64,000 nt of DNA from Sanderia malayensis (Eukaryota; Cnidaria; Scyphozoa; Semaeostomeae; Pelagiidae), in the NCBI GenBank assembly GCA_013076295.1, contig RQOL01000535.1:62001-126000 (forward strand), read 5' to 3'. The position numbers were made by a program, and so were the translations under genes. Positions 811 to 53,800 of the stretch are shown here, in pieces (within the stretch, counting starts at the first letter, position 1; every line of letters begins with the position of its first letter). The notes under the pieces were generated by a model. The model made no database searches, was not told the origin of the DNA, and was given only the letters and a program-made list of their open reading frames with translations.

Positions 811-2041
811 GTTGGGGCTCAGAACTGTTCAGAGAGTGCACGCAGGCTAACAAAACCCTGGGCTGTCAGACATAAAAGCTGACAGAAAGATAATAACACA
901 GCTGTGAGCTGAACGAGCACGTTTTGTGAACATAACATGTAACCACCATACAAGATGAACAACTAACAACTGACCAAAAATATTTCTAGAAGTCTATCTG
1001 GATGTATTGAAAATAAATGTATCTCACTTTGTAATGGTTTCTATAATTAGAAATTCTAAAAGTAAACATGAAACCAAAGAACGCACTGGGTCAAATAGCT
1101 GGTTTCCAGTCACATCACTACTCATTTGATGTATTGTTCATCAACCGTATAGGATCCTTTGTATTTTTAAACTTGCGTTTATATATGAGACAAATATGAA
1201 ATAATTCCACACTACTGGTATAGTGCTATTTCACTTCAGGAGAGGTGAAACTTCACCTGGGTAAAACTTCATTGGAAAGTTGGCAAGCGGCAGATTAATG
1301 ATTGAGGATAAAATGTAGCATGTGTATAATAAACAGGGCGCTAATTGCAAAAGTATGCGCTTCGGTAAGAAAAGGAAATAGCAAGTAACGTGAGGAAAAA
1401 GTCTCTCAGATGCTAAGATACCAACGTCAATATATTCGCGTTGAAAAAATCAGCACTCTGGTTGTCCGTGTATATGCTTTCCTTTGGAAGGTTTGCCTTG
1501 TTTGCTTCACATACCATGACGAAAGAGACATTTCAATATTGTTTTTATATAGATTTGTTTGCTGCTGTTGCTATTATTGTGTTATTGTGCTGTCGTTTAG
1601 AAATGCACCTCATATGAGTTTGTGCTTAAGCTTAAATGATGACAGTGATGAAAATTCGAGATTAACATGTTTTGTTATTGTTTCAGTGTATTTCCAGTTT
1701 AAGGGATAAGAACGCATGACTTAATATACGACAAAAGCACTGTACAAATAAATTATAAAGCCACATTAATAGTGCGTCATTTTTGAGTTAATTGCAAACT
1801 ATTCCCCCTTTTACAGATTCCCCTTTTTACAGATTGCCCCTTTTACAGATTCCCCCTTTTACAGATTCCCCCTTTTACAGATTCCCCCTTTTACAGATTC
1901 CCCCTTTTACAGATTCCCCCTTTTACAGATTCCCCCTTTTACAGATTTGAAAAAGGGGGAATATGACGTCACACGACATCGTGTGACGTCATTCCCCGTT
2001 CCCCGTTCCCTGATTCCCCGTTCCCCCTTTTACAGATAGCC
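811..2041 (-). mobile_element. M1' : second copy of foldback element M1 (one end missing)
   Basis: This stretch is the reverse complement of the M1 sequence at 24053-24472 joined to 29776-30430. It ends at 2041 with the element terminus (reverse complement GGCTATCTGTAAAAGG). The other terminus is not found in 1-810, so this copy is truncated or recombined. It lacks the IS3EU-like insertion and therefore preserves the empty target, GTTGTC at 1461-1466. It encodes no protein. Confidence 0.8.
1801..1950. repeat. 16-bp tandem repeat (CCCCCTTTTACAGATT) inside M1'
   Basis: About nine head-to-tail copies of a 16-bp unit, the first few degenerate. The unit is the terminal sequence of M1 repeated inward, a subterminal array. 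A shorter version (about four copies) lies at the M1 end at 30700-30760. Such arrays often bind the transposase; that role here is inference. Confidence 0.85.
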
Positions 2042-6540: not shown

Positions 6541-7787
6541 CTTTTGTTTGCTCTCTGATCTATTTATTTATTTACAAAAAGTAACCAGTATGGAATCCGT
6601 CTTCTGGCATCTATTCATGCATTAAACAATTTTCTAAATGTATAGATATCATATTGTGATAGCAGTTCGCCCTTGGTTGATTTAAATGCATTTCCCAGTC
6701 TGATTAATTTATTTGTACGGTTTTATTTTAGGAAATTAAAGTTCATTTTTATTCATTTGTGCTTGTTCCTTTAACCTGCATTTCGTGGAAAACAAAATAT
6801 TGTACAGCATTTAGACTTTTCCAAACCAGTGATAGTATTCCTAACTGCATTACCGAAGATCCATTTTCGAAACCGGGCTTTAAGGTCCCCGTACACTATT
6901 TTCAATTTTGTATAATAGAATATCGTGAATATAAATGCGGGTGGTGTTATTGAAGACAACGCTTGCCATTCATTTGAACTCATTATGTTGGTAACACGTA
7001 TTATTTTCTTGGAGTCGGGAGCCTTCATTAAGATATGTTCATTGGAAAAAAGGATTCAAGTTATTTGTGGAAGAAGTAAACATTATTTTTACATCCCGAA
7101 AGGTAATTGCTTAAGATAATTACTAGTGTTAATCCTTGTCCTTTATCTTTCCTCGAGCATTAAAATGAAGAAGTTGAATTTATATTTTGATACTCTACAA
7201 TTCGAATGACGAAACTCGATACACAAGATTATACTCGTCTAAATTTACAAGTTCATTAAAGTCTCTCTTATACGTTCTTTTATTAAATTTTCAACTTATA
7301 TTTGGCATATATGAGCTCGTACAACTCGTTTCAATGAGAACTGCTGCAACAATTCTACAATGGTACTTGGAGAAAATAAGGGTGCGCTCTTCATCATTTG
7401 TATAGAATTGTGTCTAGCTATATCCATCCAGCATGCCTCTCGACTTGAAGATGTTCGCTCAGAAGTAAACTTAATAATTTGGTTTAAAAAATGGTACGAG
7501 CAAAGCTAGTAAAATTAATCAGATGTAATCTTATACCCGGTGAAAATATCTCGCAAGGCTTACACTCACAAAGTCTAATTTATCACAATTTATTACTCAG
7601 ATTTCAGTATTAAAATAAATATTTATCCTATTTGAAATATAAACATTTTTAGACCACGATATTGTTGAATTCTAATCGGCAATTTGTTCCAACTTTTGTC
7701 ATTTCGTCTATATCGCAGATTCAATTAATGGGGACCCTCATTGACAAGTAAGCTCTGATTGCTCTTGTTTAAAAGCAGCATAAACAT
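6541..7787. other. Intergenic spacer
   Basis: AT-rich sequence between two genes on the same strand. It holds the 3' untranslated region of the coiled-coil gene, with possible polyadenylation signals of the ATTAAA kind near 6620 and 6735, and the promoter of the channel gene. No repeat or additional gene is recognised. Confidence 0.4.
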
Positions 7788-8957
7788 ATGGACGACATGG
7801 ATTTGATTGAAGACAGGGTTGTGATAAATGTTAGTGGGTTGCGATTTGAAACCTACCTCAGTACTTTGGAGCGTTATCCTGATACCTTGCTCGGAAGCCC
7901 CAGAAGAAGGGAAGCTTACTTTGATTCCATGAGATGTGAATATTTCTTTGACCGCAACAGACGAGCTTTTGATGCAATATTGTTTTATTATCAAAGTTAT
8001 GGAAGAATTTCAAAGCCATCAAATGTGTCGGAAAGACATTTTATGAATGAGCTGACTTTTTTCAAGATTGATAAAGAATATTCTACATTTGCAGACAGAG
8101 TTGACCGTGCAATATTGGGTGAGCCATTGCAAGCCCCTGGAAACCGATTACAGAGATTCATTTGGCAGCTATTTGATGGCGAGACTTCGCTCAGAGCTCG
8201 GGTTATAACTTTCATTGGAATATTAATGTTGGTTATTTCCATCATTCTGTCCTGTGCGGAATCCTTACCTCCAATAGAGCACCCTAAAACAGATGAAGAA
8301 CTACACATACGAAAGCTTGTGAATATTGTAAACAATGCTTGTTACATATGGTTCACGATAGAACTGATATTGAGATTTGCTGGGGCCGTTGAAAAGGTCA
8401 GATTTTTCAAATCGATCTTAAATTTAATTGACCTAATTGCAATTATACCTTTTTACTTGCAATTAGTTATTGCATGGAACTCAAAAATGACATCGCTTTC
8501 AATACTCAGGATGTTCAGACTGTTTCGCATTGTCCGTTTACTAAAGTTTTCACGCTATTCACGTGGGATCCGAGCGTTATTGTTCACCCTTTACGCAAGT
8601 AGCCATGAATTGACCTTATTGTGTTTCATCATAATCATATCTACGGTCGTGAGCGGCGCAATTACATATTACGTTGAAATGAACAACAAGTCCTCCTTTA
8701 TGACAAGTATTCCTGAATCTTTATGGTGGTCTATCAATACGATAACAACGGTTGGCTATGGAGATACATATCCGGTAACAACCATTGGAAAAGCATTGGG
8801 GGGACTCTTCTCCATGTTTGGAACAATACTTCTTGGCCTTCCTATATTTTGCCTTGTCTCTAATTTTCTGGAATTATGGGACTCTATAAGAGAAAAAACG
8901 ACAAGCGACCTCATTCTTGAAAAAACCCAAAACACCAACGAGGAGAGCAGCCGATGA
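7788..8957 (+). CDS. Voltage-gated potassium channel, Shaker/Kv1-like, intronless
   Basis: A single 389-residue frame with every Kv landmark: T1 tetramerization domain at about 11-94 (VVINVSGLRFETY, FFDRNRRAFDAILFYYQS); S1 at about 138-157; S2 at about 182-200 with acidic ELILRF; S3 at about 211-232; S4 voltage sensor at about 238-258 with repeated arginines (ILRMFRLFRIVRLLKFSR); S5 at about 275-298; pore helix and selectivity filter TTVGYGD at about 320-327; S6 at about 333-364. It should form tetrameric plasma-membrane K+ channels opened by depolarization. The T1 motifs place it in the Kv1 group. The S6 hinge, PVP in nearly all Kv1-Kv4 channels, reads PIF here, which should alter gating. 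A single coding exon is common for Kv1-type genes. The ATG at 7788 precedes T1 at the normal distance, and the short tail lacks an obvious PDZ ligand. Confidence 0.95.
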   Translation: MDDMDLIEDRVVINVSGLRFETYLSTLERYPDTLLGSPRRREAYFDSMRCEYFFDRNRRAFDAILFYYQSYGRISKPSNVSERHFMNELTFFKIDKEYSTFADRVDRAILGEPLQAPGNRLQRFIWQLFDGETSLRARVITFIGILMLVISIILSCAESLPPIEHPKTDEELHIRKLVNIVNNACYIWFTIELILRFAGAVEKVRFFKSILNLIDLIAIIPFYLQLVIAWNSKMTSLSILRMFRLFRIVRLLKFSRYSRGIRALLFTLYASSHELTLLCFIIIISTVVSGAITYYVEMNNKSSFMTSIPESLWWSINTITTVGYGDTYPVTTIGKALGGLFSMFGTILLGLPIFCLVSNFLELWDSIREKTTSDLILEKTQNTNEESSR

Positions 8958-21600: not shown

Positions 21601-22139
21601 TGATTCCTCAGATAGCGATTTTTTGTCTTAAACTATTTTTTCACAGAAAAACAGTGTTTTTTTCCTTAAAATCAATAAATCCTTGTTCCGTTTTATGTTT
21701 TACATAACTTTAACCATAACATAACTTTAACGTTTTACATAACTTTAACTTTAACGTTAGGCAGGATGTGAGGTGTTTTTAGTACATGCCCTGTCTATAT
21801 AGAACGTTACGAAACGTTTATCTATTATAAATGTAAATAAAATTTACAGTCTTAATAGGTAAATAAGGTAAACTTTATAGTTTTAATGTATGTAAACAAG
21901 GAAAGACCAGATGCATTTTGTGAATGTGAATATCGCCCGCTTTGATGACTTCCGATTCGCTGTTTGTATCATCACTCAGTCCAATGCGAGCTGTCAACGA
22001 TGTCTGTTCAACACCAATATTTTAGTGGTCAGGGGGTAGACTGTAGGTCAGAATTAATGACTCGTCTAACCAATAACATATAATGAAAAAATATACATAC
22101 TTTGCCCCATGAAACAAACTCGAAGAATTAAATAACGAG

Positions 22140-23914: not shown

Positions 23915-24556
23915 ATAGTATATTTTTTCATTATACGTTATTGGTTAGACGAGTCATTAATTCTGAATTACAGTCTACCCCCTGACCACTGAATTATTGG
24001 TGTTGAACAGACATCGTTGACAGCTCGCATTTGACGGAGCGATGATACAAACGGCTATCTGTAAAAGGGGGAACGGGGAATCAGGGAGCAGGGAACGGGG
24101 AATGGAGAAAAGGGGGAATCTGTAAAAGGGGGAATAGTTTGCAATTAACTCAAAAATGACGCACTATTCATGTGGCTTTATAGTTTATTTGTACAGTGCT
24201 TTTGTCGTATAAGCCATACGTTCTTATCCCTTAAACTTGACATTCACTGAAACAATAACAAAACATGTTAATCCCGAATTTTCATCATTGTCATCATTAA
24301 AACTTAAGCACAAACTCATATGAGGTGCATTTCTAAACGACAACACAATAACACAATAATAGCAATAACAGCAAACAAATCTATATAACAACAATATTGA
24401 AATGTCTCTTTCGTCATGGTATGTGAAGCAAACAAGGCAAACCTTCCAAAGGAAACCATATACACGGACAACTATGGGGTGCCAACACCGCCAAAATTCA
24501 GCTGTGTTTTTCTTCTGAAAATGCTGCTAGTTTCTAGTAAATATTGTGTTCTTTTT

Positions 24557-24692
24557 TAAAAATATTCAGCCTAGCTGCATGAAAAATATTCAGCCTAGCT
24601 GCATGAAAAATATTCAGCATGGCTGCATAAAAAACATTCAGCATAGCTGCATAAAAAATATTCAGCATAGCTGCATAAAAAATATTCAGCAG
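24557..24692. repeat. Left subterminal repeats of the IS3EU-like element
   Basis: Five to six direct copies of a unit of about 24 bp, AAAAATATTCAGC(A/C)TAGCTG followed by CATG. The same unit appears inverted about nine times near the other end. Such arrays are plausible transposase-binding sites (inference). Confidence 0.9.
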
Positions 24693-24774
24693 TCTGGTAA
24701 CGAGTTTTAGGCAAAGAGACCCCGAGACCCCACGTGGTCATCGCACTCCGTCCACACGCCACTTTCAAATCAAG

Positions 24775-27303
24775 ATGGCGGATGAGCTTGCCGAAGCTGC
24801 ACGTCGTCTGGCAAGAGCAGCGCAGCGTTTGGGCAGTGAAAGTCAGCCTAACGCAGCTATTCATCATCAATTATCTGCCTCAACGACTACCACTCCACGT
24901 CTACCTGTTCAGGCTGCTGATGGGCACCAACGTCCTTCTGCATCTGGTACTCCTCGAACTCCGACAGTTCTTTCCGAAATGCGATCACTGTTTCCACATC
25001 ATTCAAGCTCAGCAAGAGTTCCATCGTCTTCAAATCCAAGAAAACGTAAATCTTCTTCTAAGAAAGGCAGAGTTGTCGTTCGCCGTTTTGTTTGCCTGGC
25101 TGATAAAGAGCAGAGCACTACCCCAGATGCCGAAGAACACAGGGAGTTACTCGCTGCTGGCTTAGGGGAAGCAAAGGTTGCCGTCCCGGAATCTTGCGAA
25201 GAAGAAGAGTTAAGAGATTTGTTGTTGTCATCATTTTCAAAACTTGCAGATGCAGGTGGTTTTGAATTGATGTTTGCTGAGTCAAGAACAAGAGAGCTAA
25301 AGATTATACCACCAGGTCCATCTGGCTTACTATGAAATATCTGGTCGCATTTATTGGTCAAGGAAAAATTTATGTCAGACCAATTCAGCAGGATCTGATG
25401 ATGTCTGTGCAAACCAATAGGCCTACTCTAAACTTTAAACCATCTCGAGAACTGTGCATTGACTGTGATGAGATTATTGAAATACAACAACTGAGGGAGC
25501 ACAAAGCGATTTGCGGGAAAAATCACAGACGACCAGACACAGGTTTGACATTTTTTTTTTACAAACAATTATAAAAAATACATATAAAAATATAATAAAC
25601 ATATAAAAATACAGGATTTTTCAATATCAAACTTGGATCAACATTTTATTGCTTATATAAATTATCTTTAATTTCACATGCGACATTTAAACACAGGGCC
25701 CACACCACTAAATTCTATTTTCCTAAATAATTTGTACATAAATAATATATTTACAACTAACAATAATAATAATAATAATTTTGAAAAACACCGTTCGACA
25801 GTGCTCAATACACATATGTGTAGAACGGTATCTGCCTGATGAGTGCATAAGCACGAAACTCAGAGTTGCAGCGAATTATGTGTTTTTATTGAACATCACT
25901 CAATTCTATATATTTACAACTATCAATAATTTCTTGCAGCAAGCAAACCTTCTGATGTGGATAATTTGGATTTTCCACCAGCATTTACATGGGAACCTAA
26001 ATTTAACGCCAACGAAGGAGAAGCTGCTGCTGCCTCAACATCTTGCATAAAACCTCCATCTCCTCAACAAGGAAAGAACTACAAAACATACATTTCAATA
26101 ATTGATGATGACGAAGATGACGATCCAAGTTTTTTGGCGGCCCTTGAAGCTAGCATTGCTGAGTCAAAAGCTACCCAAAATATAGCACTTGATACAATGC
26201 ACGCGTCAATCGAGTCTTTTATCTCTGCTAATTTAAAATTTGAAGATGATGAAGACAAACAGCACATAATTATAAGCAGGAAATTCATACACAACTCCAC
26301 CATAAGAGCAATTAGCAGAGAAAACTTTACTTTCTTCAAACCGCTTGCTGTTACTTTTTCTGGGGGAGGGGCTGTTGACACTGGAGGGCCTAAACGAGAA
26401 TATCTCAGGCTCTTAATGTCAGGCATTGGAAAGTCATCAGTTTTTGATGGTGTATGGCTTTCTCACAACTTGGAATTACTTCACACCAAACAATATGAAA
26501 TAGCTGGCAAGCTTATTGCGTGGAGCATTCTACAGGGAGGACCTGGCCCAAGATGCATTAAACCTGAAATTTTTAATCTGCTGGTTGGTAACAAGGTGAA
26601 CAATGTGACCCTCGTTGACTCTTGTACAGACAAGAAACTCCAGAGTATTCTGAGGCAGATGATCTATTGCAACAAAGAAGAATTTGATAATGTCACTGCT
26701 GAACATCAAGAAACCATAGCCAACTATGGCTATGCCAAGATTTACAGATCAAAGTTCCAAGATAAAGAGGAGATCATTGGTGTCCTCCTCAAGTTCCACT
26801 TTCTATACTCTGTACATGCAGAGATGCAGCAGATGAAAGATGGACTGAATGCCATAGGAGGGTTTGGAGATATTGTTTTTGGATGTGCAGAAATATTTAA
26901 CAATGTCCTTGGAAATGAAGTGAAAACCCTTACATATGTATCTTTCAAAAAAGAGTATTGCATAATGCTTTCAGAAGCTGGTTCGAACAGGAGAGCCATG
27001 GAAGAGATGACAATATACAGTTTTGAAGTGTTTTTACAAGATCTGGAGGAGAAGCAAGTAGGTGATTTGCGTCTGGAAGATTTATTGATCTTTATAACAG
27101 GAGCAGACAAGATTCCCCCACTTGGATTTGATTCATCAATAAAGATTGATTTTTATGATTTTCAAGATAACAACAGGCGCCTCCCACATGCATCAACATG
27201 CTCACCTGCAATATTTCTTCCCAGAGGAATGGAAAATCCAGATACATTTAAGGAGCTCATGAAGGAGGTTCTTACTGAGTGCCATGGCTTTGGATTAGTG
27301 TGA
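24775..27303 (+). pseudogene. Transposon-borne E3 ubiquitin ligase: UBZ-like finger, UIM, HECT (one frameshift in exon 1)
   Basis: Exon 1 is 24775-25542, starting at ATGGCGG in good context; the intron is 25543-25939 (GT...TTCTTGCAG); exon 2 is 25940-27303. Phases agree (G|CA, alanine). Exon 1 encodes a Ser/Thr-rich N-terminus, a basic KRKSSSKKGR patch, then a UBZ-like zinc finger CIDCDEIIEIQQLREHKAIC (C-x2-C-x11-H-x3-C). Exon 2 starts with an acidic run and FLAALEASIAE, an exact phi-xx-A-xxx-S-xx-E ubiquitin-interacting motif, then a HECT domain ending LPHASTCSPAIFLP with catalytic cysteine codon TGC at 27199-27201. A single-base loss near 25329-25334 shifts the frame after PPGPSG; exon 2 alone is intact from 25957. 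The family resembles the G2E3-like HECT proteins abundant in fish and cnidarian genomes. Expected role: ubiquitin transfer onto an unknown target; whether it serves the transposon is open. Confidence 0.85.
25543..25939 (+). other. Intron of the transposon E3 ligase gene
   Basis: Starts GTTTGACA after CACAG and ends TTCTTGCAG before CAAGC. AT-rich, phase 1. Its presence means the element transposes as DNA rather than through a spliced RNA. Confidence 0.85.
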
Positions 27304-28095
27304 GAATTTATGTATGCTTTCAAGTTTCAGTTGTTACTGTTCGTAGTTATGTTGAAACATTTTCCAATTGCTTAATGCTGTAAATCCAATGTACTCTTTT
27401 GTGCTTAATTGTAGGGGGGTCATATTGCATTTTTGAAATTTTCACCCCCCATAGCATTTTATAATGCTGCCCCCCATTTTAAGGAAATGTGAAAGTACGA
27501 CCTACCCCCCTCTCAATTTTATTATCAACCCCCATATTAGACTTTTTAAAATTTCTCAGAAAAGAATCTTTGCTGCCAGACAGAACTCTTTCTAAGAACA
27601 AAAGTTAACTTTAAAATTTGAACTTTATTTAAAACTTCATAAAGTTCTTAAAAACAACGAAATCTGGACCCTGAAAAAAATGCTGGATATATTATGCCGG
27701 TGTAAATACTTTTTTGTAATGACACTTGTTTTGTTTTGTTTTGTTTTGTTTCGTGTTCTTCGATATTGTATCAAACAAAACGAAGTAAAAGATTCATTTC
27801 TTTGCTGATATGATGTACCTTTTTGTTCTATTTTCATACTTTATGATTGTTAGCTAGTTGTATAATTTAGTTCTAAGTTTAATCTTGAATACATATAAAT
27901 TTGTTTTTTCTGACATGTTTATTACTCAATCTTCATTGTGTCTATTGACATACTCTTTTACAAATTGGTACCACTGGACACTTTCCCCTGCCGTGGCCTG
28001 CGGAGAACATTTTAGTCTACTGCCAGAACATTGAGTTCATGAAGTTGCTGCACGTTTAAAAACGCATCTCCGTGTCAGGTATTTGCACTTGATTA
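27304..28095. other. Convergent 3' ends inside the IS3EU-like element
   Basis: Lies between the tail-to-tail ligase and integrase genes. It holds pyrimidine/purine-rich blocks with runs of six Cs, and a (TTTTG)n microsatellite at about 27727-27750. No further gene recognised. Confidence 0.5.
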
Positions 28096-29360
28096 TCAAC
28101 TTCTACACCTGCAGGTCCTTCCCAGTCTACACCATAATCCTTCTGCCGTCACTGCCTCGTTCATATCCACTACTGGATTGTTTAACTGTCCAGTTATCCA
28201 AAGCTGTAAAGGAGTCATGTTTCTTTCTGTTCTTAAAGGATACAAATCCATGCTTCGACCACGTTTGTAGACGATGATTTATTATTTCGGCAAAGACATA
28301 ATGTAAACACCAGAGGTCAGTATCGAGAACGGGGTTTAAAATCCCCACATCTTCCATTGGGTAGAAGAGCTCATGGAAATAACTGAGCACGTCCTTAAAA
28401 ACATCCCTCCACAATCGCCCTATCCTTTGATTGTGGACACTGCGACCAACAAGAGCTGATTTACGATTTAAGCCTTTTCTTTCAATCATATATTTCACTA
28501 CATCACATTTCACCTCCCATGTCACACCTAACCCTCGATGGCATTCCCCATTTGCTTACTGCACAGGTGAAAGAATGGACCACTGTCTCTGCTCGATTAT
28601 TTGTAGCACATGAAAGGTAGACTGGCAAGCGGCTATACCCATCAACGCACCCGTGAACCACAAACGCCAGCGAATCAATTTGTGGTTTCCATCAAAGTGC
28701 CACAAAGCGAGAGGACCAGAAACTGAATAGGCTCTTCGTTTGATAGCAGTACAGCGCCGAATGGCAACACCCAAAGGATCTACCCTCTGCAATGACTCCC
28801 GTATGCGGTGGCGTTGAACTTTTATCCTCCGAGCTGATAAATAGCCAAAAATGTTTTTAGATCCACAGTTAGGATTAAAATGCTTGATCTCCATGACTAT
28901 TCCATCAAGCTCGTCATCAGTAATATTACTATATGGCAATGCTGTTATTTCATATTCAGCAAGACGGCGCTCGATGGTCCTTTTGGAGACATGCAGCAAA
29001 TCCTTGATTTGGGTAGCATTAAACCCCAGATCTACGAGGCATTCCAACTGTTCTTTTGCTATCATAAGAAGGTCTTCCCCGGTTACCATCTCGCCTTTGT
29101 TCCACCCTCAAAGATGAGCTGCATGCATTTTCAGCAATCTGCCTTGCTCCGAGGAGTTCTTGGAATACTACGTCAGACACATTACTAACCGAGTCTAAGT
29201 CGGTCGCTGCTTGAATTACGCAATCTATTTCGATGATAAGGTCTCGTATATTTTCTTGAGAAGGACTGGATGCCAATTCCAGGTTTATTCTCTCCATGCT
29301 GCTCGTCAACTCTTGCCTGAAGCTGTCAAGTTGATTTGCTCTTGATGCATTGTCAGCCAT
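28096..29360 (-). pseudogene. IS3EU-like integrase/transposase (rve DDE), four frameshifts and a lost catalytic Glu
   Basis: Starts at ATG 29360 (MADNASRANQLDSF), with an N-terminal helical region. A helix-turn-helix segment follows (LECLVDLGFNATQIKDLLHV, SKRTIERRLAEY). The catalytic core has GPLALWHFDGNHKLIRWR (first Asp), VRCDMGGE (second Asp) and SVHNQRIGRLWRDVF, where relatives as I know them have an E in place of that G, so the third catalytic acid appears lost. The frame breaks near 29055, 28665, 28515 and 28250, mostly single missing bases, before the terminal LRTERNMTPLQLWI stretch ending at TGA (28096-28098). It should be inactive. The role in active relatives is excision and integration of the element at its inverted ends. 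Confidence 0.85.
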
Positions 29361-29465
29361 TTTTGGTATCAAAATTTATCAGATGAATTTATCAAATGTA
29401 TCACTATGAATTGAATTGAAAATTGGTTCCCAAACTGCTGAAGAACTTTGAGCCAGGCTGAAGGC

Positions 29466-29695
29466 TGAATATTTTTTTGTAACCTTACTTAATATTTTTA
29501 TTCAGCCACGCTGAATATCTTTTATGCAGCTAGGCTGACTATTTTTCATGCAGCTAGGCTGAATATTTTTCATGCAGCTAGGCTGAATATCTTTTATTCA
29601 GCCATGCTGAATATTTTTTATGCAGCTAGGCTGAATGTTTTTTATGCAGCCATGCTGAATATTTTTTATGCAGCTACGCTGAATATTTTTAAAAA
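29466..29695. repeat. Right subterminal repeats of the IS3EU-like element
   Basis: Eight to nine copies of the same 24-bp unit as at the left end, here in the opposite orientation (GCAGCTAGGCTGAATATTTT). Variants differ at the TAGG/CATG/TACG position. More copies than at the left end. Confidence 0.9.
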
Positions 29696-31582
29696 AGAAC
29701 ACAATATTTACTAGAAACTAGCAGCATTTTCAGAAGAAAAACACAGCTGAATTTTGGCGGTGTTGGCACCCCGTAGACAACCAGAGTGCTGATTTTTTCA
29801 ACCCGAATGTATTGACGTTGGTATCTTAGCATCTAATGACTTTTTCTTCACGTTACTTGCTATTTCCCATTCTTACTGAAGCGCATACTTTTGCAATTAG
29901 CGCCCTGTTGATTATACACATGCTACATTTTATCCTCAATCATCAATCTGCCGCTTGCCAAATTTCCAATGAAGTTTTACCCAGGTGAAGTTTCACCTCT
30001 CCTGAAGTGAAATAGCACTATACCAGTAGTGTGGCATGATTTCATATTTGTCTCATATATAAACGCAAGTTTAAAAATACAAAGGGTCCTACGGTTGATG
30101 AACAATACATCAAATGAGTAGTGATGTGACTGGAAACCAGCTATTTGACCCAGTGCGTTCTTTGGTTTTATGTTTACTTTTAGAATTGGTAATTATAGAA
30201 ACCATTACAAAGTGAGATACATTTATTTTCAATACAACAGATAGACTTCTAGAAATGTTTTTGGTTAGTTGTTAGTTGTTCATCTTGTATGGTGGTTACA
30301 TGTCATGCTCACAAAGCGTGCTCGTTCAGTTTGACAGCTGTGTTATTATCTTCCTGTCAGCTTTTATGTCTGACAGCCCAGGGTTTTGTTAGCCTGCGTG
30401 CAGTCTCTGAACAGTTCTAAGCCCCTTTGAGCTGTTTGGGTTGATTTTCTATTTATAGCTTTGCAATATTTACATAATTGTTTTTCATCATTCTCTTCAG
30501 TTAAAGTTCGGTTGCCAATGTGCGCATTTCCACTTTTTTAAATTAATCAAATTTTACATGTTTTGTTATTGTTTCAGTGAATGTCCAGTTTAAGGGATAA
30601 GAACGTATGGCTTAATATACGACAAAAGCACTGTACAAATAAACTATAATGCCACATGAATAGTGCGTCATTTTTTAGTTAATTGCAAACTATTCCTCCT
30701 TTTACAGCTTCCCCCTTTTACAGATTCCCCCTTTTACAGATTCCCCCTTTTACAGGTTTGAAAAAGGGGGAATGTGACGTCATACGACATCGTGTGACGT
30801 CATATTCCCCCTTTTCTCCATCTCCCTTTCCCCGTTCCCTGATTCCCCGTTCCCCTTTTTACAGATAGCCTGATACAAACAGCGAATCGGAAGTCATCAA
30901 AGCGGGCGATATTCACATCCACAAAATGCATCTGGTCTTTCCTTGTTTACATACATTAAAACTATAAAGTTTACCTTGTTTACCTATTGAGACTGTAAAT
31001 TTTATTTACAGTTATAATAGATAAACGTTTCGTAACGTTCTATAAGCGTTTCCGCATTTATTTAACTGGTAAATTTCAAACGGTTTCGTACTTCCGTTCC
31101 CCGACCGTTCCCCGGTCGTTCCCAGGTTATTCCCCAACATTTCCCGACCGTTTTCCAGTCGTTCCCAGGTTATTCTGTTCCCCGACCGTTCCCCGACCGT
31201 TCCCCGTTCCCGCTTTTAGTAATAGCCAGGACAACTGGCAACAACAAATGCTAGTTAATGTTTTCTTAACTTAACTTAAGTTAATTATTGACGTATATCA
31301 TAACTTGGCGTTATCAACAAAATATCACTTAACACATCCCTCATACGATGATATTTGAAATGTGCTAACTTATTGGGGATCCCACTGAGCCTCCGACTAG
31401 GGGATTACGAAGATGACAAACAACCTATGCTTAATATCAAGTGCTGACACCCAAATTGTATAAGCCAATCAATGCCAAGTTTTTTAAAAAGCTGACTCTG
31501 GCTAACCAACCAAACAATCGCAGAAAAACAATCGTTATGTTTTTCCACTCATCCCCACGGATGTGTTTTATTGATACTTGAA

Positions 31583-32251: not shown

Positions 32252-32275
32252 GGTTAAGGGCCCAGTAGAACGCTC

Positions 32276-34500
32276 ATGTTCGATGGAGACGAGACAAAGT
32301 ACGAGTTGTGGGAAGTAAAATTTCTTGGGTACTTACGTCTACGAAAACTACATAAGGTAGTCATCCCGAGTGAAGATGCACCAGATGCAGGATTGAATGC
32401 AAACGCATTTGCAGAGCTGGTTCAGTGCTTGGACGACAGAAGTTTGGCCTTAATAATCCGCGAAGCAAAGGACGATGGACGAAAGGCATTGGCCTTGCTG
32501 AGAGAACACTACCAAGGAAAGGGGAAACCAAGAGTGATTGCAATGTATACAGAGTTAACTTCATTGCAGATGAAGGAAAATGAGTCCACGACGGACTACA
32601 TTCTCCGAGCTGAAAAGACAGCAACCGCCCTAAAAACAGCAGGAGAAATCATAAGCAATGGTTTGCTAATAGCAATGGTGTTGAAAGGCTTACCAGATAG
32701 CTACAAAACCTTTGCAACAGTTGTAACACAGAGGGAAAAGCAAATGGAGTTTTCAGAGTTCAAGACAGCCCTCCGCAACTTCGAAGAAACGGAAAGAAGT
32801 TGCAATAGAACCTCAGAAAGCGGTGATAACATCATGCTACTAAGGCAAAAGTTTCAAGGAAACTGTTTTAAATGCGGTGAAAAGGGACACACGAGCAGAA
32901 ATTGCCAGAGCAGGACTGCAGTCAACAAAGTCACTAAATGGTGTTCAAAGTGCAGAAGCCCTACACACAACACGAAGGATTGTAGGAAGACACAAGGAGA
33001 TGCGGCGAAGAAGACCGAAGAGAAACAGAAAGAAGAAGAAGAAGAAGAGATACACGATTTTGCATTCAGCTTTAAAGATGAAGAAGTGAGAAGTAAGAGA
33101 ACTTCAGAGTTATTGCTAGATAGTGGGGCAACTAGCCATATTATAGTAGATCGAGAAAAGTTTGTAAGCTTTGATGATAACTATAACAGTAGCAATCATT
33201 TTATCGAATTAGCTGACGGGAGTAAGGCAAACGTGGTACAAGGTAAAGGAAGGGCTAAGGTTAAGCTTTACGACGCTAAGGGGAACCCCCAAGATGTAGT
33301 TCTCCACAATGCTCTGTATATTCCCTCGTATAGTCAGAATATATTTTCAATCTCTGCCGCAATCGATAGAGGGGCGTGCATTAATCTTGACAAAGATTCA
33401 AAGTACCTCAGGCAGCCGGACGGTAAAACTTTCGAAGTAGAACAAAAGGGTCGTTTGTATTACTTGAACAGTATTTCATCATCAAAAAACAATGCTAGTT
33501 CTTTGATGGATTGGCACAAAATAATGGGTCACTGCAATTTTCAAGATTTGCAAAAACTACCTAACGTGGTGAACGGTATGAAAATTCACGATCATAAACA
33601 AAACGAATGTATTGTTTGTAATATGGGCAAAATGTGTCAGACTAGGAATCGGAAGCCAGATGAAAGAGCCAAAGGGCCTCTTGAGTTTGTACACTGTGAT
33701 TTGGCCGGTCCGATAGACCCGAAAGCAAAGGACGGTTTCATGTGTGCATTGTGCTTTGTCGATGATTTCACTGGTATTCACATGGTTTATTTTCTTCAGC
33801 AGAAAAGTGATACCGTGGAAGCAACAAAAATGTTTTTGGCGGACATAGCCCCATTTGGTGAAGTGAAACGAATAAGAAGTGACAATGGAGGTGAATTCAT
33901 AAGTAAAGACTTTCGTAATTTATTAATTAGAAATAAGATTAAGCATGAAACATCTGCACCATACTCTCCACACCAGAATGGTACCGTGGAACGTGCATGG
34001 CGTAGTTTGTTTGACATGGCTAGATGTCTTTTGATTGAATCAAATTTACCTAAGACTTTATGGACTTACGCTGTAATGACAGCCGCATTTATTCGAAATC
34101 GTTGCTTTAATCCTAGACTAGATAAAACCCCGTACGAAGCTTTGACTGGAAAGAAACCAGATCTTAGCAATATGCATATTTTTGGCTCAATCGGTTACGC
34201 ATACGTACAAAATGCAAAGAAATTAGATGCACGTAGTAAGGAAGGTATATTTGTCGGATACGACAAAGGAAGTCCAGCCTATCTTGTTTATTATCCCGAA
34301 TCTAACGAAGTTAGAAGAGTACGATGCGTAAAGTTCAGTAAACAAATGTTTCACGAAAATAGAACGCCAACACACGAAGACGATATTGAATTCCCAGTCA
34401 CATAGACGCCAACAAACGTAGGTGACGAGATTGCGCAAGACGGAGAGATGATTGGCGATGACAAGGAAAACAGGGGACGTCGGTACCCCAAACGAACTCA
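32276..34500 (+). pseudogene. Copia gag-protease-integrase part
   Basis: Opens at ATG 32276, 25 bases after the LTR. The gag domain leads to a CCHC zinc knuckle CFKCGEKGHTSRNC and a second CxxC-H-C cluster (CSKCRSPTHNTKDC). Then come the aspartic protease motif LLLDSGATSHI, the integrase zinc-binding HxxxxH and CIVCNM, and a DDE core with CDLAGP, RSDNGGEF and HQNGTVERAWR (D, D and E all present). The frame is stopped by TAG at 34403-34405, a nonsense change, since the same frame continues to RRYPKRTHS just before the LINE. An overlapping antisense frame is chance. Confidence 0.9.
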
Positions 34501-36412
34501 CAGTAAACTATAGAGGCATTACTCTGGTAAGTTGTCTTGGAAAAGTGTTTACTGGGATTCTAAATAAAAGGTTATCAAGCTTTTTAGAAACTAATAGTTT
34601 ACTACTTGAAAATCAAGCTGGTTTTCGACATGGCTATTCTACAACTGATCATATATTGAACCTTCACCTTATTGCTGAATATTTCCTCAGCAAGGGAAAG
34701 AAACTATACTGCGCCTTCATTGATTATGAGAAAGCTTTTGACACTGTTTGGAGGAGTGGTCTTTGGATGAAATTGATTAATAATGGTATCAAGGGAAAAT
34801 GTCTTTCCGTAATTGTGAACATGTATAAAGGCATTAAGTCGATGGTAGCTAAGAATAATGATTATAGTGAGAGCTTTTTCTGTAATTCTGGTGTTAGACA
34901 AGGGGAGAACCTTTCACCTCTGCTTTTCTCGATTTTCTTAAATGATTTGGAGGCTTCTTTAGAACAATCAGCGTCAGATGGCGTTTTACTAGAATTCGAC
35001 AGTATTACATTACAACTTTTCAGTCTGTTATATGCTGATGATACTGTTCTTTTCGCTACATCACCTGAATCACTGCAAAACTCTTTGAACAATCTAGAAA
35101 ATTACAGTAACAGTTGGAAACTAAAAGTTAACATTGGGAAAACTAAGGTTATGATTTTTTCCAGAAGTGGCAGGTGGAGCAAAAAATTAAAATTTTGTGT
35201 CAATGGAAAAGATTTAGATATAGTAAGCGAGTTCAAGTATCTTGGGGTTACTTTTAAAAGTAATGGGAGGTTTTTAAGTGCAATGAAGTTATTGAAAACA
35301 CAGGCTGATAAGGCGATGAGATATATTGTTTCAAAAGCGAGAATGACTACCATGCCTGTTGATCTTCAATTAAAACTATTCGATTCGCTGGTTCTACCTA
35401 TAATAACGTATGGGGCAGAAGTATGGGGTTTAGAAAATACAAATATGATAGACGAGTTAGAAATTCAGTATTATAAATTAATCTTAAACTTACGAAAATC
35501 GACTCCTAAATATATGGCGTATGGGGAGCTAGGACGTTACCCTGTTTCAATTACAATAAAAATTAGGATTATTAGCTTTTGGGTTAAAATGCTAAGAGGA
35601 AAGGAAACTAAAATTTCCCTCAGTCTTTACAATAATTTGTTATCTAATTATGAAAACATAAGGTGGATGAAATCCGTGAAAAACATTCTTGATAGCTGTG
35701 GCATGTCCAATGTTTGGGATTCACCAACAGATACCCAATTACGTAGCATTGTAAATAGAGTTAAATTTATTTTAAAAGACCAATTTCTGCAACAATGGAA
35801 CAATGATATGCAAACGTCTCATAAGGGTAAAATGTACATGAAATTTAAAAAATCTTTCAAGATGGAAGAATATTTATGCAAACTACCAAGCAATCTTGCA
35901 CAACAACTGTGTTGGTTTAGAACAGCCAATCATAAGCTACCAGTTGAAACTGGTAGGTGGGCAAACATTGACTATGAATTGCGAAAATGTGATATGTGCA
36001 CATCAAATGAAATTGGGGATGAATACCACGCAATCGTCAAATGTGCAGCATTTTCTGACATAAGAAACAAATACATACCTAATTATTTCTATCGTTACCA
36101 ATCTATTTATAAGTTTGAAAGTCTGATGAAAACTACAAATAACCCACAATTGATAGCTAATGTAGCGAAATTTATAAGAGAAATCTCAAACTTTAGAAAA
36201 AGAAACCAAAACGTTCTGTAAAACAAATTCCATTTGTTGCTGAATTTGCCGTGTTGCTATGTATGTTTTATGTTCCTGAAGTTGATTTAAAACTCTAATC
36301 TTATCACTAGTTGATGTAAAGAGTTTTATTTGATTTAAATCTTTTAAAACATGCCTCATCTGGGGGTATGTAGTAATTGATTATTATTGATGATGATGAT
36401 GATGATGATGAC
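34501..36412 (+). mobile_element. LINE (non-LTR retrotransposon), 5'-truncated, inserted in Copia
   Basis: An open frame to 36221 encodes a reverse transcriptase from its first motif on: NYRGITLVSCLGKVF, NQAGFRHGYSTTDHIL, KKLYCAFIDYEKAFDTVWR, GVRQGENLSPLLFSIFLNDL and LLYADDTVLFA with the catalytic ADD. It is followed by a thumb/connector (GAEVWG) and a C-terminal CDMC...H...C cysteine motif. The upstream endonuclease is missing, as in 5'-truncated copies. A 180-bp tail ends in (TGATGA)n at about 36388-36412, a simple-repeat 3' end as in RTE/CR1/L2-like clades; the exact clade is uncertain. The frame is unbroken, so the insertion is recent. Confidence 0.88.
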
Positions 36413-37769
36413 ACGTTACGGCTCTGTCGAATATTCCACAGTCAGTGAGATTGATGATTTTGTTAACTATACAGTAGATTACTGTTACCGTGTTGCTAAT
36501 GTCCCAACGAGCCATAGTGAAGCTTTAAAATCAACGGAGACAAAACAATGGCAAACAGCCATGAGTGATGAAATGAAAGCTTTGAATGACAACGAAACAT
36601 TTGACTTAGTTACCCCACCAGAAGGCAGACAGATAGTGGGGGGGGGGGATGGGTATTTGCAGTAAAAATGGGGCCGAACGGAGAAGAGACGTATAAGGCT
36701 CGATACGTAGCAAAAGGATATTCGCAAGTCGCAGAAATTGATTACCAGGACACTTTTGCACCAACAGCCCGAATGAGTTCAGTGAGAATGCTAATGCAAC
36801 AAGCTGTCCAAAACAACATGGTCATTCATCAAATGGACGTTAAGACTGCTTATCTTAATGCGCCGATAGATTGCGAAATTTATGTTGAACAACCCGAAGG
36901 ATTTGAAAAGCGAGGCGAAAACAACGAGAAGTTAGTCTACAAATTAAATAAATCTTTGTATGGCCTAAAACAAAGTGGACGAAATTGGAATAATACACTC
37001 CACAATTTTTTGGTTGATGAAAAATTCTGCCAATCACTCGCAAATCCGTGTGTATACACCAAAAATTCCAAGCTTGGTGAAACAATTATTTTAATAATTT
37101 GGGTCGACGACATCATAATTACGGCGTCTAATCTGTCCTTGTTAGAAAGCGTTAAAACAGCTCTTTCTAAGAGATTCAAAATGAAAGACTTGGGCAAGCT
37201 TTCTTGGTTCCTAGGAACCAACTTTGAATGTAATGAAGATTGCATTAAAATGAACAGCACACAGTATATAGATAGGATCCTCTCAAAGTTCGATATGGCA
37301 GACTCTAAACCAAAACCCACCCCGTGTACCCCTGGAATAGAGAAGGAGAGTGACGAAGTCGAGTCGATTGTGTTGGATGATCCTCGATTATATGGAGCAA
37401 TTGTTGGGAGCTTGATCTATGTTATGACGGGTACCAGACCCGACATTTGTTATGCTGTGACAAAACTTTCACAGAACATGGCAAAGCCTTCTCAGTCAGA
37501 TCTCAGCGCAGCAAAAGATGTGCTCAGATATTTAAAAGGTTCACGTGAAAGAGGCCTAAATTTCGAAAAGTCAGAGATGCCCTTACAACTGACAGGGTTT
37601 TGTGATTCAGATTGGGGTGCATCTGTGAAGGACAGGCGTAGCATAACGGGCTATAATTTCCAATTGACGGATAGTGGTCCTTTAATCTCTTGGAAAAGTC
37701 GTAAACAGCAAACAGTAGCCCTATCTACTTGTGAAGCCGAATATATCTCGTTAGCTAATGCTGTTCAAG
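36413..37769 (+). pseudogene. Copia reverse transcriptase and RNase H (N-terminal part)
   Basis: After the LINE the Copia frame resumes at RYGSVEYSTVSE. It breaks in a run of eleven Gs at about 36638-36650, a length slippage, and continues from ATG 36668 with YKARYVAKGYSQ, FAPTARMSS, QMDVKTAYLNA, KSLYGLKQS and IIWVDDIIIT (YVDD-type catalytic box, here WVDD). RNase H follows with GFCDSDWGAS and STCEAEYISLANAVQ, where the hAT MITE cuts in. All palm motifs are present. Confidence 0.9.
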
Positions 37770-38462
37770 CAGGGGCGGATCTAGACCAAAATCTGACTGG
37801 TGCAATTTAGGGGTTTTTGGGGCGTGTCCCTAGGCTTTCGTATACTGCCACACCCCTTGACAGACAACACGTAATCATTGACTCAATAAATGCTTTCAAA
37901 TATTTCTTTGGTTGTTTAGAAGAAGCTTTAAAGTAAAACACAACATTTTAGAAGAAAACAAACGAAAATAATAAACGTATTACTTTTACGAGTTTCAGTT
38001 CAGGACATATTCAGGACAGGACTTCAGTATCAGTTACATCAAAATATCAACATTCCGATAAATACGTAATAATGACGTTTTGCCCCAGTCAGCCCTGCAT
38101 TTTCATTGGTAGATTGGTCTTTGCACCAGTGGAAATGACGTTTTGCACCAGTGAAAACTCATTTCATTGGCTAATGTTGAAATTTTGACACAATAAAACC
38201 CGGGTCACTGGGGCAGTAGAAAGCTGTGACGTGTCTCAATACAACGGGCAACACGTTTTTACAACCATTCTGCGTAAAGTTGGCCTAGCTTTTACAGCAT
38301 TGCCTACTGCGTGTGTGCTCTGGTTGACCTAAACAGTCAATCCAGCTGTGAATGTGGAACTATATTTTGTGTGAACGTTATCTTTAATCGATTACGTCAC
38401 TGCTTTTGGGAGAATCTGACTGGGGCAATTGCACCAGTTGCACCAGTCTATATCCGCCTCTG
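37770..38462. mobile_element. hAT-like MITE (693 bp) inside Copia RNase H
   Basis: Inverted ends CAGGGGCGGATCTAGAC and CAGAGGCGGATATAGAC, flanked by GTTCAAG at 37763-37769 and 38463-38469 (7 bp visible; hAT normally gives 8). Internal direct repeats of CCAGTG/CACCAGT. Removing it joins the RNase H frame precisely. Confidence 0.85.
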
Positions 38463-50849: not shown

Positions 50850-53800
50850 TTAAAAAACAGGCCCGATAGACTCAAACCAGGTCATTACCGACGGATCAAC
50901 CAATACATAATTCTTAAAATCATTGTAAGAGATTTTATCATCTCTGTCAGTGTCAGCTCTCTTGAAGATATAATCTGCCACTTCATACAGGGCATCATGA
51001 GCCATAGCTTCAACCGCCGAAAAGGCTCTTTTATTTGCAGTGTGCGTGTTGCTGCTATTTATTTCTGTGGCCCTTAATCCATCATCTCGTAAAGGTCGTT
51101 GAGGAATTGGGGCATTAAATATCGCCGAAATAGGTCTGTTCCCACTATCATCGTAATTTTCCATCATCTCCTCTTCGCAAGATCTAACAACATCGCGAAC
51201 AAGTTCGACATTTACTTGATGGTGCGCTTGTAATACTTTGAGCAGGTCTTCCCTCGAGATAAAATTGTCAGAATCAACATCGTACGCCTTGAATACAAAT
51301 TTCATTTTCTCTGCTTGTGTCCCTTTGGTAATGATAGATAGACCTCTGACAAACTCTGGAAAACTAATATACCCATTTCCGTTTAGGTCATAAAATTTGA
51401 ACATTTGATCGACAAGGACATTTTTCCGTAGTGCTAAAGGTCCAAGGCATTGGTAAAATATTTCTTTTGTAATACCCAGACTACTTGTACACAGTGATTT
51501 ATACTGCTCATACAAATACTCTATTTCTGATGGGTCAAAGTGACTAATCACCCTGAGTTCTAAGACTTCGTTCCAAGATATCTTTGGTTTCACAGCTTTT
51601 TTACCTGCAAAATAAAGTGTAATTAGTATCAGTTGTAACGGAATTTAGCGTCAAGCGGTCTAAATATTAAAAACGATGTACCGTAAATCCTCGAATAAGC
51701 CCCCGGGGGCTTATTTACAAAAGCAAAATTTTTGGCTCATTATTAATCAATATTAAGCAAAATAAAAGCTATAGCTACGATGCAGCTAATCAATGAAGTT
51801 AGTGGTTTAATCTTGCTGTTATTTGCAATACATTCACTAAACAAGTTCAATGTCTCGATACTTCGACTCAATATCCTTGCAAATGATTATCAGGATGGGG
51901 GTTTATTCCAGGGGAGGGCTTATTGGAGGATTTACGGTATATCTGATAGCAGTGTTTTTGAGAAGAGTTTTGCTCTGATGCCCAAATTTATTAACAAATT
52001 CCAATCAGATAATTTACAAATCTTTGTCGCACATGACTTAATTAATGTATAATTTTTCAGTTATAGGCATAGTGCAACGAAAAATCACTTTCCCGTTCTC
52101 TCATTCAGACAGGGGGTGTCAGCAATAAAGAAGCGAGAGGGGGAAAAGAGGGTGGTATAAATTTGGAAAATTTCAAGTCTGATACGAAATACATTAATTT
52201 GATAATTACATTACACTTTTAGATATAGCCTCGTTTTAAACTTGTATGACATAGGGGTACGTTACGTCTAACAGTGTATTCAGGTGATACACTCCCTCTC
52301 AAAAGTATTGCAAAGGTCGATAAAAAACTGGCGTCAAAAACGGCGCCAAAAACGGCGACCACTCAAGCAAACATTTTGAATTTCGATATTGACTTTTGAA
52401 TTTTCGATTTAGTTTCATCTTGTTGGGGAGATGAACATGGCCATCATTTGTTTCAGTCCTTTGTTTCAACGGTTTTGTTTTACCAATGAAAACATTCCCA
52501 TTTCTGCGCAATTGCGCATCTTTCAGTAATGACGTAATGCAAGTTTTGAAATTAACCAGTCAAAACTGCCGACCAAGATTAATCTCAGTTTACAAGTGAT
52601 CAGGAAAGTTCCATTTCACTTCCGTGATCGTGCTCAAATTTGTCTGTGAAAGAAACTTGTTGTTTATTTAAAATATGGCAAAATTTCATGAAGATATGGC
52701 ATGTTTTTGTTCTCATATCTTTGTTATTAGGACGAATTTTAAAATTCAGGCCGATGGAAATTTAGAAAAACTACTGCTCTTTTGAAAAATGTTTGTTTGA
52801 AGCTGTTTTTTGAAACTATATGCAGCAGCAACTCTAAATAAAAACATCACTTTCTCACAGCTCGGCGGGATTTTAGCCGCCATAACAGGCAATTTTGTTG
52901 AGTTTTGTTGCATTTCTATTGTTCTCAAAGTGCACTGATTGGTCAGTTCAATTAAAGTAAAACAATAGCTGGACGTTCGAAGCAGTTCCCCCCTTGCTGG
53001 CCTAAGTACAATTAGGCCAGCTGCAGAGAGGGGGTAGGGTTCACTTGGTCCCAGAAACTTCCCCGTCAGGCAATCATACCCCCTCTCTCAGCCTGGTCTA
53101 AGTCACTAATGTCTAAATTGTTCTTGTCTGCTTTCTTAAAATTTAATATAATTCTAAAATATATAAACAGTACATCCTCGATTATCTGAACCTTGATTAT
53201 CCGAATGCCAAAAGTTTTTACTACATCAATTTTTTGCAAACCAATTCTCGATCACTAAATAAAATATCTGTTGTCTTTTTTAATTTTCGCCCTTTATCAC
53301 AGTCAAATCCAATGGAAACATCAAATTAACACATCAGTTTTCATGTTCGTGTTTACAATTACCAAAACCGCTAAATGGAAATCGAACAGGAATTTCAAAA
53401 TCCACAAGTTTTGACTAATTGTGACCATCTTCCGTTTGAGCACCCAGTGACTATTCTGGGTGATAAAAATAAACTTCATGACAAGATTAGTAGGTAAAAT
53501 TTTTGTCCTTGATTATCCGAATTTTTGGCGTATCCGAACGGCCCAGCAAAAAATTGAGTTCAACTTGTTCGGATAATCGAGGATGTACTGTAATTCCAAA
53601 TCATATCTCTACCTCATAGGCTTTAGGCCCTCTACTCTAGGTTGTTGTCAACAGATAGCCGAGATTTGGCAAAGTAATTGATGTGGGTATTGGAAACTAC
53701 AGGATATGTCAACAAGACACAAAGCTAACCTTTGAGGTAAAGAGCTGCTCCTATCTTTACAGACCATTATGAACCAATAACATCACTGAGATGTGAAATT

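Follow-up and report, generated by a model that had tools for sequence, protein, structure and literature searches.

The window analysed here is a 64,000-nucleotide stretch of the genome of the scyphozoan jellyfish Sanderia malayensis (assembly GCA_013076295.1), corresponding to positions 62,001 to 126,000 of contig RQOL01000535.1, which is contig C481 in our numbering (62001–126000). At window positions 24473–29775 lies a DNA transposon of the IS3EU/GingerRoot type with both of its ends, and its gene content – a two-exon gene for a HECT-type E3 ubiquitin ligase and a gene for a DDE integrase, in convergent orientation – is the subject of this report. The window element is a defective copy of a two-gene transposon of the IS3EU/GingerRoot superfamily. 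Its features, in window coordinates, are the following.

24467–24472: left target-site duplication GACAAC, an exact 6-bp match to 29776–29781
24473–24690, plus strand: left terminal inverted repeat, starting TATGGGGTGCC, one of two 219-nt arms with 93% complementarity
24558–24691, plus strand: array of 24-bp subterminal repeats, 5.6 copies (Tandem Repeats Finder)
24775–25542, plus strand: HECT exon 1, encoding the N-terminal part and a CCHC finger, with the ATG at 24775, a frameshift near 25330 and the splice donor after 25542
25455–25514, plus strand: UBZ4-like finger C-x2-C-x11-H-x3-C, recognised by its spacing pattern
25543–25939, plus strand: intron of 397 nt, GT...AG; the spliced reading matches gene model P0001
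25940–27303, plus strand: HECT exon 2, intact, within an open frame at 25930–27303
26116–26163, plus strand: motif resembling a ubiquitin-interacting motif (UIM-like), DDDPSFLAALEASIAE, recognised by its sequence pattern
26266–27300, plus strand: HECT ubiquitin-ligase domain (PF00632)
27199–27201, plus strand: catalytic cysteine codon TGC
27926–29360, minus strand: DDE integrase/transposase gene, broken here (PF24764 and comparison with copy L010; ends read by eye)
29462–29690, minus strand: array of 24-bp subterminal repeats, 9.6 copies (Tandem Repeats Finder)
29558–29775, minus strand: right terminal inverted repeat, the second 219-nt arm, final bases CCCCGTA
29776–29781: right target-site duplication GACAAC, an exact match to the left copy
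1260–1658, minus strand: empty site, a paralogue of the joined flanks with a single GACAAC (379 of 399 bases)

The inverted arms span 24472–24690 and 29558–29776, and the termini of the element read TATGG...CCGTA. When the two flanks are joined over a single GACAAC, they align to the empty site without interruption across the insertion point, and a longer match at 858–1882 reaches 93% identity; the empty site is a paralogue of the flanking DNA at another place in the window. A preliminary description of this DNA, drawn up from its letters alone, had claimed complete inverted ends, an exact 6-bp duplication and an empty site, and all of these are confirmed. Paralogous pieces of the flank lie, inverted, at 858–1882, 21959–22096 and 30553–30733, and since they recur in this way within the window, the element was evidently inserted into a local repeat. 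The 24-bp repeats found inside either end are possible binding sites for the integrase.

Of the two genes, the first belongs firmly to the HECT family: PF00632 scores 53.4 bits on the window protein (cut-off 23.9), and the HECT profile matches the HECT chains of AREL1, RSP5, NEDD4 and E6AP in the PDB, with profile positions 123–474 aligning to the RSP5 chain; both lobes of the domain are present, and the cysteine lies in the C-lobe. The spliced window reading from 25401 onward is the same as the EukProt predicted gene product P0001, and the frame that is broken near 25330 in the window copy stays open in the copies L010 and L011. The catalytic cysteine, earlier said to be intact, is indeed encoded by TGC at 27199–27201, inside the intact second exon. 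The product of the second gene is a DDE integrase, a type of enzyme responsible for cutting and joining ends with 6-bp duplications and TAYGG..CCRTA termini. Its rva_4 profile (PF24764) matches fragments of the window gene at E-values of 4.6e-27 and 2.8e-8 and the better preserved L010 gene at 270.9 bits, and the residues D229, D286 and E321 are invariant across 18 integrase sequences.

A search of the whole genome (184,004,477 bases in 918 contigs) with the terminus of the window element, in which repeat counts are lower bounds, found it at eight sites – both ends of four elements – and revealed no further short derivatives. All four elements contain HECT and integrase sequence, each is bounded by its own exact 6-bp duplication, and they are 97.8–98.9% identical in pairwise comparison. 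In L010, the integrase is open over 484 amino acids and HECT exon 2 is frameshifted; in L009, exon 2 is intact, exon 1 frameshifted and the integrase broken; L011 has lost about 2.1 kb from its middle, including the end of the HECT gene and part of the integrase. Three of the four copies have exon 2 at full length, with a frameshift in one of the three; in the fourth, an internal deletion has cut it short. The proposal that the HECT gene belongs to the element has thus withstood the search: HECT sequence occurs in four of four copies, with neither a terminus copy devoid of it nor a capture confined to the window copy.

The association extends far beyond this family. Queried with the window proteins, the genome gave 88 HECT loci, and 35 of these lay no more than 5 kb from an integrase: 33 were convergent, one divergent and one on the same strand. 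Once the Pfam HECT and rva_4 profiles were added, a HECT match lay within 4 kb of 55 of 150 rva_4 loci – the loci scored out of 572 first-look candidates, the HECT lists being likewise limited in length – where uniform placement predicts about 1.0; 53 of these were convergent, two divergent and none on the same strand, leaving 95 loci without HECT. Adding the HECT protein of the C815 element as a query raised the count to 60 of 150 (58 convergent, two divergent; 1.1 expected), and with HECT queries from four families it reached 103 of 150 (101 convergent, two divergent, none on the same strand; about 1.6 expected), three of these four queries having been taken from beside integrases, without which the count is 60. 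Some of the 95 loci at first called HECT-less are misses, because their HECT proteins are very diverged: two large open integrases from that list have convergent HECT-domain matches (E-values of 2.2e-37 and 1.1e-32), and HECT C-lobes were recognised by eye beside three further loci (L057, L066 and L067), their cysteine column being invariant when aligned with the others. Viewed from the side of the ligase, an integrase lies within 5 kb of 118 of the 246 HECT-like loci; among the other 128, which have none at that distance, some are probably cellular HECT genes or fragments.

Ends were sought in seven further elements, bringing the total to 11, with a scan for a TATGG/TACGG-type pattern and, in places, also for TGYGG or TG..CA. 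Exact 6-bp duplications bound seven of the 11: the four of the window family and one each on C815, C824 and C479. The C815 element (348455–353477, duplication GAAAAT) has a HECT open reading frame of 754 amino acids and an integrase of 492; the C824 element (261180–266389, CCAACA) has its HECT gene as two open exons beside an integrase of 499; and the C479 element (469295–474127, TAAAAT) has a HECT open reading frame of 717 amino acids and an integrase of 449 with a zinc ribbon. All three show the same convergent arrangement as the window element. As the ends were sought by motif, the end motif is not independent evidence in these families (C824, C815, C571 and C479), whereas the matches of inverted repeats and duplications are. 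The window element and its three copies have the TA..TA ends (TAYGG..CCRTA) too.

These mapped elements bear on the idea that the HECT loci are ordinary host genes of the G2E3 type, alongside which integrases have inserted. The idea draws on relatives annotated as 'G2/M phase-specific E3 ubiquitin-protein ligase-like' and on the 128 HECT-like loci free of an integrase, yet it is extremely improbable, given that HECT lies between inverted ends in seven elements with exact target-site duplications and that the 103 neighbours within 4 kb are convergent in all but two cases, with none on the same strand. A host gene beside an insertion is ruled out for those elements whose ends were mapped.

Whether the two genes are inherited together can be judged from 23 HECT–integrase pairs, with whole or partial genes, which fall into 20 families when grouped at 70% amino-acid identity. 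Any two HECT proteins of the set are, at the median, 25% identical and any two integrases 36%, and 22 of the pairs are convergent. HECT and integrase distances agree with a Mantel r of 0.76 (22 of the 23 pairs), a value reached in none of 5000 permutations. Trees of the 18 best-covered pairs have eight of 15 splits in common, where 2000 permutations gave 0.3 on average and never more than 3; the other seven splits differ between the genes. Every one of the 20 pairs that cover the column has the catalytic cysteine. Between four families, synonymous differences are saturated in both genes (proportion pS 0.75–0.85), with non-synonymous proportions (pN) of 0.36–0.55, and in the close pair C815/C859b HECT has a ratio of non-synonymous to synonymous substitution (dN/dS) of 0.53 and the integrase one of 0.44.

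Taken together, the four copies, the distant families, the excess of pairing, the agreeing distances and trees and the kept cysteine lead us to conclude that HECT is a recurrent second gene of the transposon in this genome, largely co-inherited with the integrase. About 20 diverged families have it next to the integrase, with the active-site cysteine kept. The two-gene architecture and the identity of the second protein as a HECT E3 ligase, leaving aside its target, can be stated with high confidence. In calling the HECT gene cargo beside a DDE integrase, the preliminary description was right about its place inside the element; the word 'cargo' is too weak for a co-inherited second gene.

That HECT is a chance capture or passenger of a single family, with no function in transposition, accords with the decay of the window-family copies and their dN/dS values, which are not low. 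We nevertheless regard it as very improbable in view of the 20 families and the near-uniform orientation of the pairs, the cysteine present in 20 of 20, and HECT frames of 717–782 amino acids that remain open in C571, C815, C479 and C675 even though the families compared are saturated at synonymous sites. The low median identity of the HECT proteins likewise disfavours the pairs being copies of one recent element. A one-off capture is contradicted by all four copies, by the genome-wide pairing and by the shared tree splits.

Several observations nonetheless weigh against the two-gene reading, starting with the window copy itself. Its HECT exon 1 is frameshifted, its integrase is split over several frames and the catalytic Glu reads Gly, making a normal integrase impossible. 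Among the four recent copies of the window family, selection looks weak: dN/dS spans 0.26–0.99 for HECT exon 2 (six pairs) and 1.07–3.96 for the integrase (three pairs with very few synonymous changes), exon 1 giving 0.31–0.52 (three pairs with few changes); these values fit decay and give no sign of constraint on the integrase. No HECT match lies within 4 kb of 47 of the 150 integrase loci even with all queries, or of 90 of them without the three integrase-adjacent queries. Among the further elements, the ends of C571 match at 24 of 25 bases and both genes are open, but the target duplication has no match; the ends of C675 could not be fixed amid nested repeats, its two genes being open over 782 and 509 amino acids; and the 5.4–5.5 kb stretches scanned for C876 and C787 contained no qualifying ends. 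C675c, alone among the 23 pairs, is divergent, C613 is placed differently in the two trees, with low support in that of HECT, and the co-inheritance may reflect linkage alone.

Some features of the wider set deserve mention in their own right. Four near-identical copies of one HECT–integrase family occur on C571, C618, C737 and C781, and this group possibly stems from segmental duplication, as its mapped member has no matching target duplication. A second integrase lineage (L029 of C479, L033, L035 and L039), in which DGYDK replaces DGNHK, also has convergent HECT partners; it is 27% identical to the integrase of the window family and has, in C479, a zinc-ribbon N-terminus. Many rva_4 matches (on C848, C854, C688, C738 and others) start at profile position 11–21 in short open frames, a sign that some integrases may have an intron close to the first catalytic Asp.

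The part of the ligase that precedes its HECT domain was earlier said to hold two ubiquitin-binding modules. The finger, CIDCDEIIEIQQLREHKAIC, does have the claimed spacing C-x2-C-x11-H-x3-C, which resembles the consensus spacing of UBZ4 fingers; the same spacing is seen in the C824 family, where it was read by eye, and in one fish protein (P0057), and otherwise in the window family only. The UIM-like motif recalls the acidic run and A-L-x2-S core of the UIM consensus. Of 22 close relatives, namely those among P0001–P0030 with at least 40 residues ahead of the HECT domain, 19 keep it, its start lying 29–55 residues upstream of that domain. Across 53 linkers, the UIM pattern occurs in 26, one of them (C675) a loose match, as against 1.7 in shuffled sequences (maximum 6 over 300 shuffles), the rows being mutually related. 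Finger spacing and UIM-like motif are thus present as described; on the Pfam side, neither UBZ nor UIM profiles reached an E-value of 0.1, and the sole match of the finger is to the TRAFD1/XAF1 zinc finger, a weak one (E 0.031, 14.6 bits, below the cut-off of 27). A motif of the VIDLTE/IIDLDE type, resembling a SUMO-interacting motif (SIM-like), stands 39–60 residues before the HECT domain in the sister clade around C815 and in a number of fish proteins. It is absent from the window family and occurs in 12 of the 53 linkers, as against 1.8 in shuffles (maximum 8), although three of these 12 rows (P0179, P0180 and C815) are likely to be this host's own copies. In the HECT proteins of C815 and C675 (L021 and L023), the motifs read VIDLTEEY and VINLVEEY and stand near the position of the UIM-like motif in the window clade.

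Judging from its family, the second protein is very probably an active E3 ligase that receives ubiquitin from a host E2 enzyme on its cysteine, and the finger, UIM-like and SIM-like motifs would steer it to ubiquitin- or SUMO-marked proteins. The preliminary description had offered tuning of the transposase, disarming of host silencing and action at broken DNA as roles that such an enzyme could have. As to its main substrate, the mechanism that we prefer, tentatively and at less than even chances, is that it acts on the element's own integrase–DNA complex. The ligase would ubiquitinate the integrase at the joined ends, host machinery would then remove the ubiquitinated integrase from them, and its removal would allow gap filling; the same ubiquitination might also limit the dose of integrase. 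We favour this integrase-linked role over a host-directed one since the ligase, in contrast to the TET/JBP genes of fungal elements, generally remains with its own integrase. For a transposon lineage with a ubiquitin-ligase domain there is a precedent in the RING fingers of RAG1 and Chapaev (PMC4411706).

The host-directed role, which we consider rather unlikely, would have HECT mark silencing or repair factors for removal, aiding expression of the element or favourable repair of its insertions. Motifs like those with which proteins read ubiquitin (UIM, finger) or SUMO (VIDLTE-type) do precede the HECT domain, and there is an analogy in the TET/JBP genes of fungal IS3EU elements, suggested to evade methylation silencing (PMC12730594). 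A helper directed at the host, however, could serve any transposon and swap among them, whereas HECT largely co-diverges with its integrase; nor was a host target seen. It is improbable, too, that the pair forms an addiction or copy-control module, in which the ligase would destroy the integrase of other copies, limit a burst and so protect host and element alike. Such a module would suit convergent genes that co-diverge, and self-ubiquitination of RAG1, as given in the title of a paper cited in PMC4411706, would be a precedent; in the present data, it is not separable from our preferred mechanism of integrase removal after joining.

A broader version of the integrase-linked reading strikes us as quite unlikely as a whole. 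It would make HECT the essential second transposition protein of an entire animal superfamily, reading ubiquitin (in the clade with UIM-like motif and finger) or SUMO (in the SIM-like clade) at the insertion complex and ubiquitinating the integrase, which host unfoldases would then strip from the joined ends. The many G2E3-like HECT genes found in fish, molluscs and cnidarians would largely be such transposon genes or their remains. The proposed stripping would be a eukaryotic counterpart to the way in which ClpX takes the Mu transpososome apart.

Relatives of both proteins occur in other animals. Those of HECT (8000 candidates scored) come from the sea anemone Actinostola, a scallop, an acorn worm and many fish, and many are annotated 'G2/M phase-specific E3 ubiquitin-protein ligase-like'; those of the integrase, among the 120 of 1666 matches listed, come from cnidarians, sponges, molluscs, a priapulid, an acorn worm and fish. 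Actinostola, Siphateles boraxobius and Melanotaenia boesemani are found among the listed relatives of both. Moreover, three of 65 HECT rows and three of 120 integrase rows have longest contigs of equal size (232,778, 422,679 and 128,226) and like member numbers (32/33, 3/3 and 2/2), and these coincidences suggest that the two genes may share a contig in other genomes as well.

The animal proteins annotated as G2/M-specific ligases share the HECT domain with the transposon proteins, some also having a UIM- or SIM-like motif, and their identity to the transposon HECT is 27–37% in the named fish, scallop and acorn-worm rows and 43–47% in two Actinostola proteins. Cellular G2E3 has a PHD/RING region before its HECT domain; in contrast, no Pfam match to such a region was found at an E-value of 0.1 in the four transposon HECT proteins scanned (P0001, P0004 and those of C815 and C479). 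The earlier suggestion that transposons of this kind explain the abundance of G2E3-like genes is therefore borne out in part, by the relatives so annotated in fish, scallop and acorn worm and by the 118 of 246 HECT-like loci that have an integrase nearby. A viral or prokaryotic origin was considered and rejected: phages gave no HECT match, and pattern scans of limited reach yielded no match or none confirmed for HECT in viral contigs, and none confirmed for HECT in prokaryote contigs or for the integrase. In PHROGs, two HECT proteins had no match and the integrase matched phage transposase families weakly (best E 2.2e-6); against solved structures, the integrase profile had no match at 0.001.

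If the reading proposed here is true, a separate ubiquitin ligase recurring in a DNA-transposon superfamily would represent a new use of the host's protein-marking system by a mobile element. The transposons would be a concrete and testable source for the sets of 'G2E3-like' HECT genes that are scored as host genes by annotation pipelines – as has happened here, P0001 being the spliced reading of the window transposon – and the integrase–ligase pairs would offer test systems for the removal of integrase after joining.

The remainder of the window holds other recognisable frames. Those at 32258–34405 and 36605–37810 apparently form one retrotransposon frame, which we take from sequence appearance alone to be of the Copia type, split by a reverse-transcriptase frame (34452–36221) that we take, on the same basis, to be non-LTR-like. 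By eye, the open reading frames at 7773–8957 and 50850–51644 resemble a voltage-gated potassium channel and an EF-hand protein.

Among known systems, the nearest in the catalytic domain are the cellular HECT ligases AREL1, RSP5/NEDD4 and E6AP, along whose HECT chains the profile aligns – including, for AREL1, the catalytic cysteine. They differ in their N-terminal parts and in being cellular genes that are not transposon-borne. The transposon, too, is of a known kind: IS3EU has been described (PMC10045372), and IS3EU/GingerRoot elements share with the window element the rva_4/rve-type DDE integrase, 6-bp target-site duplications, TAYGG..CCRTA ends and terminal inverted repeats. In the main text of the two IS3EU papers (PMC10045372 and PMC12730594), HECT and ubiquitin are absent, whereas here HECT recurs as the second gene. 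No report of the pairing was found in the literature searched (mostly at title and abstract level, with Repbase and subscription journals outside it), nor any paper there naming IS3EU together with HECT or combining 'HECT domain', 'integrase core domain' and 'transposon'; IS3EU and HECT are thus each known, and their pairing is apparently unreported within that literature, Repbase lying beyond it.

The closest parallels come from two other groups of transposons. Fungal IS3EU elements carry TET/JBP genes, which are suggested to help them escape methylation silencing (PMC12730594). Like the jellyfish element, the TET-positive ones have a second gene opposite the transposase and an extra enzyme thought to affect host regulation; unlike it, their second gene encodes an alpha-kinase, with the TET/JBP gene lying in between, and the TET/JBP genes move between transposon superfamilies (PMC12730594), whereas the jellyfish HECT gene mostly stays with its own integrase. 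RAG1, a transposon-derived recombinase, contains a RING that acts as a ubiquitin ligase, and a RING is also present in some Chapaev elements (PMC4411706). There, as here, a lineage of DNA transposons possesses a ubiquitin-ligase domain; the RING, however, is fused to the transposase (PMC4411706), while in the jellyfish transposon the ligase is a separate HECT protein.

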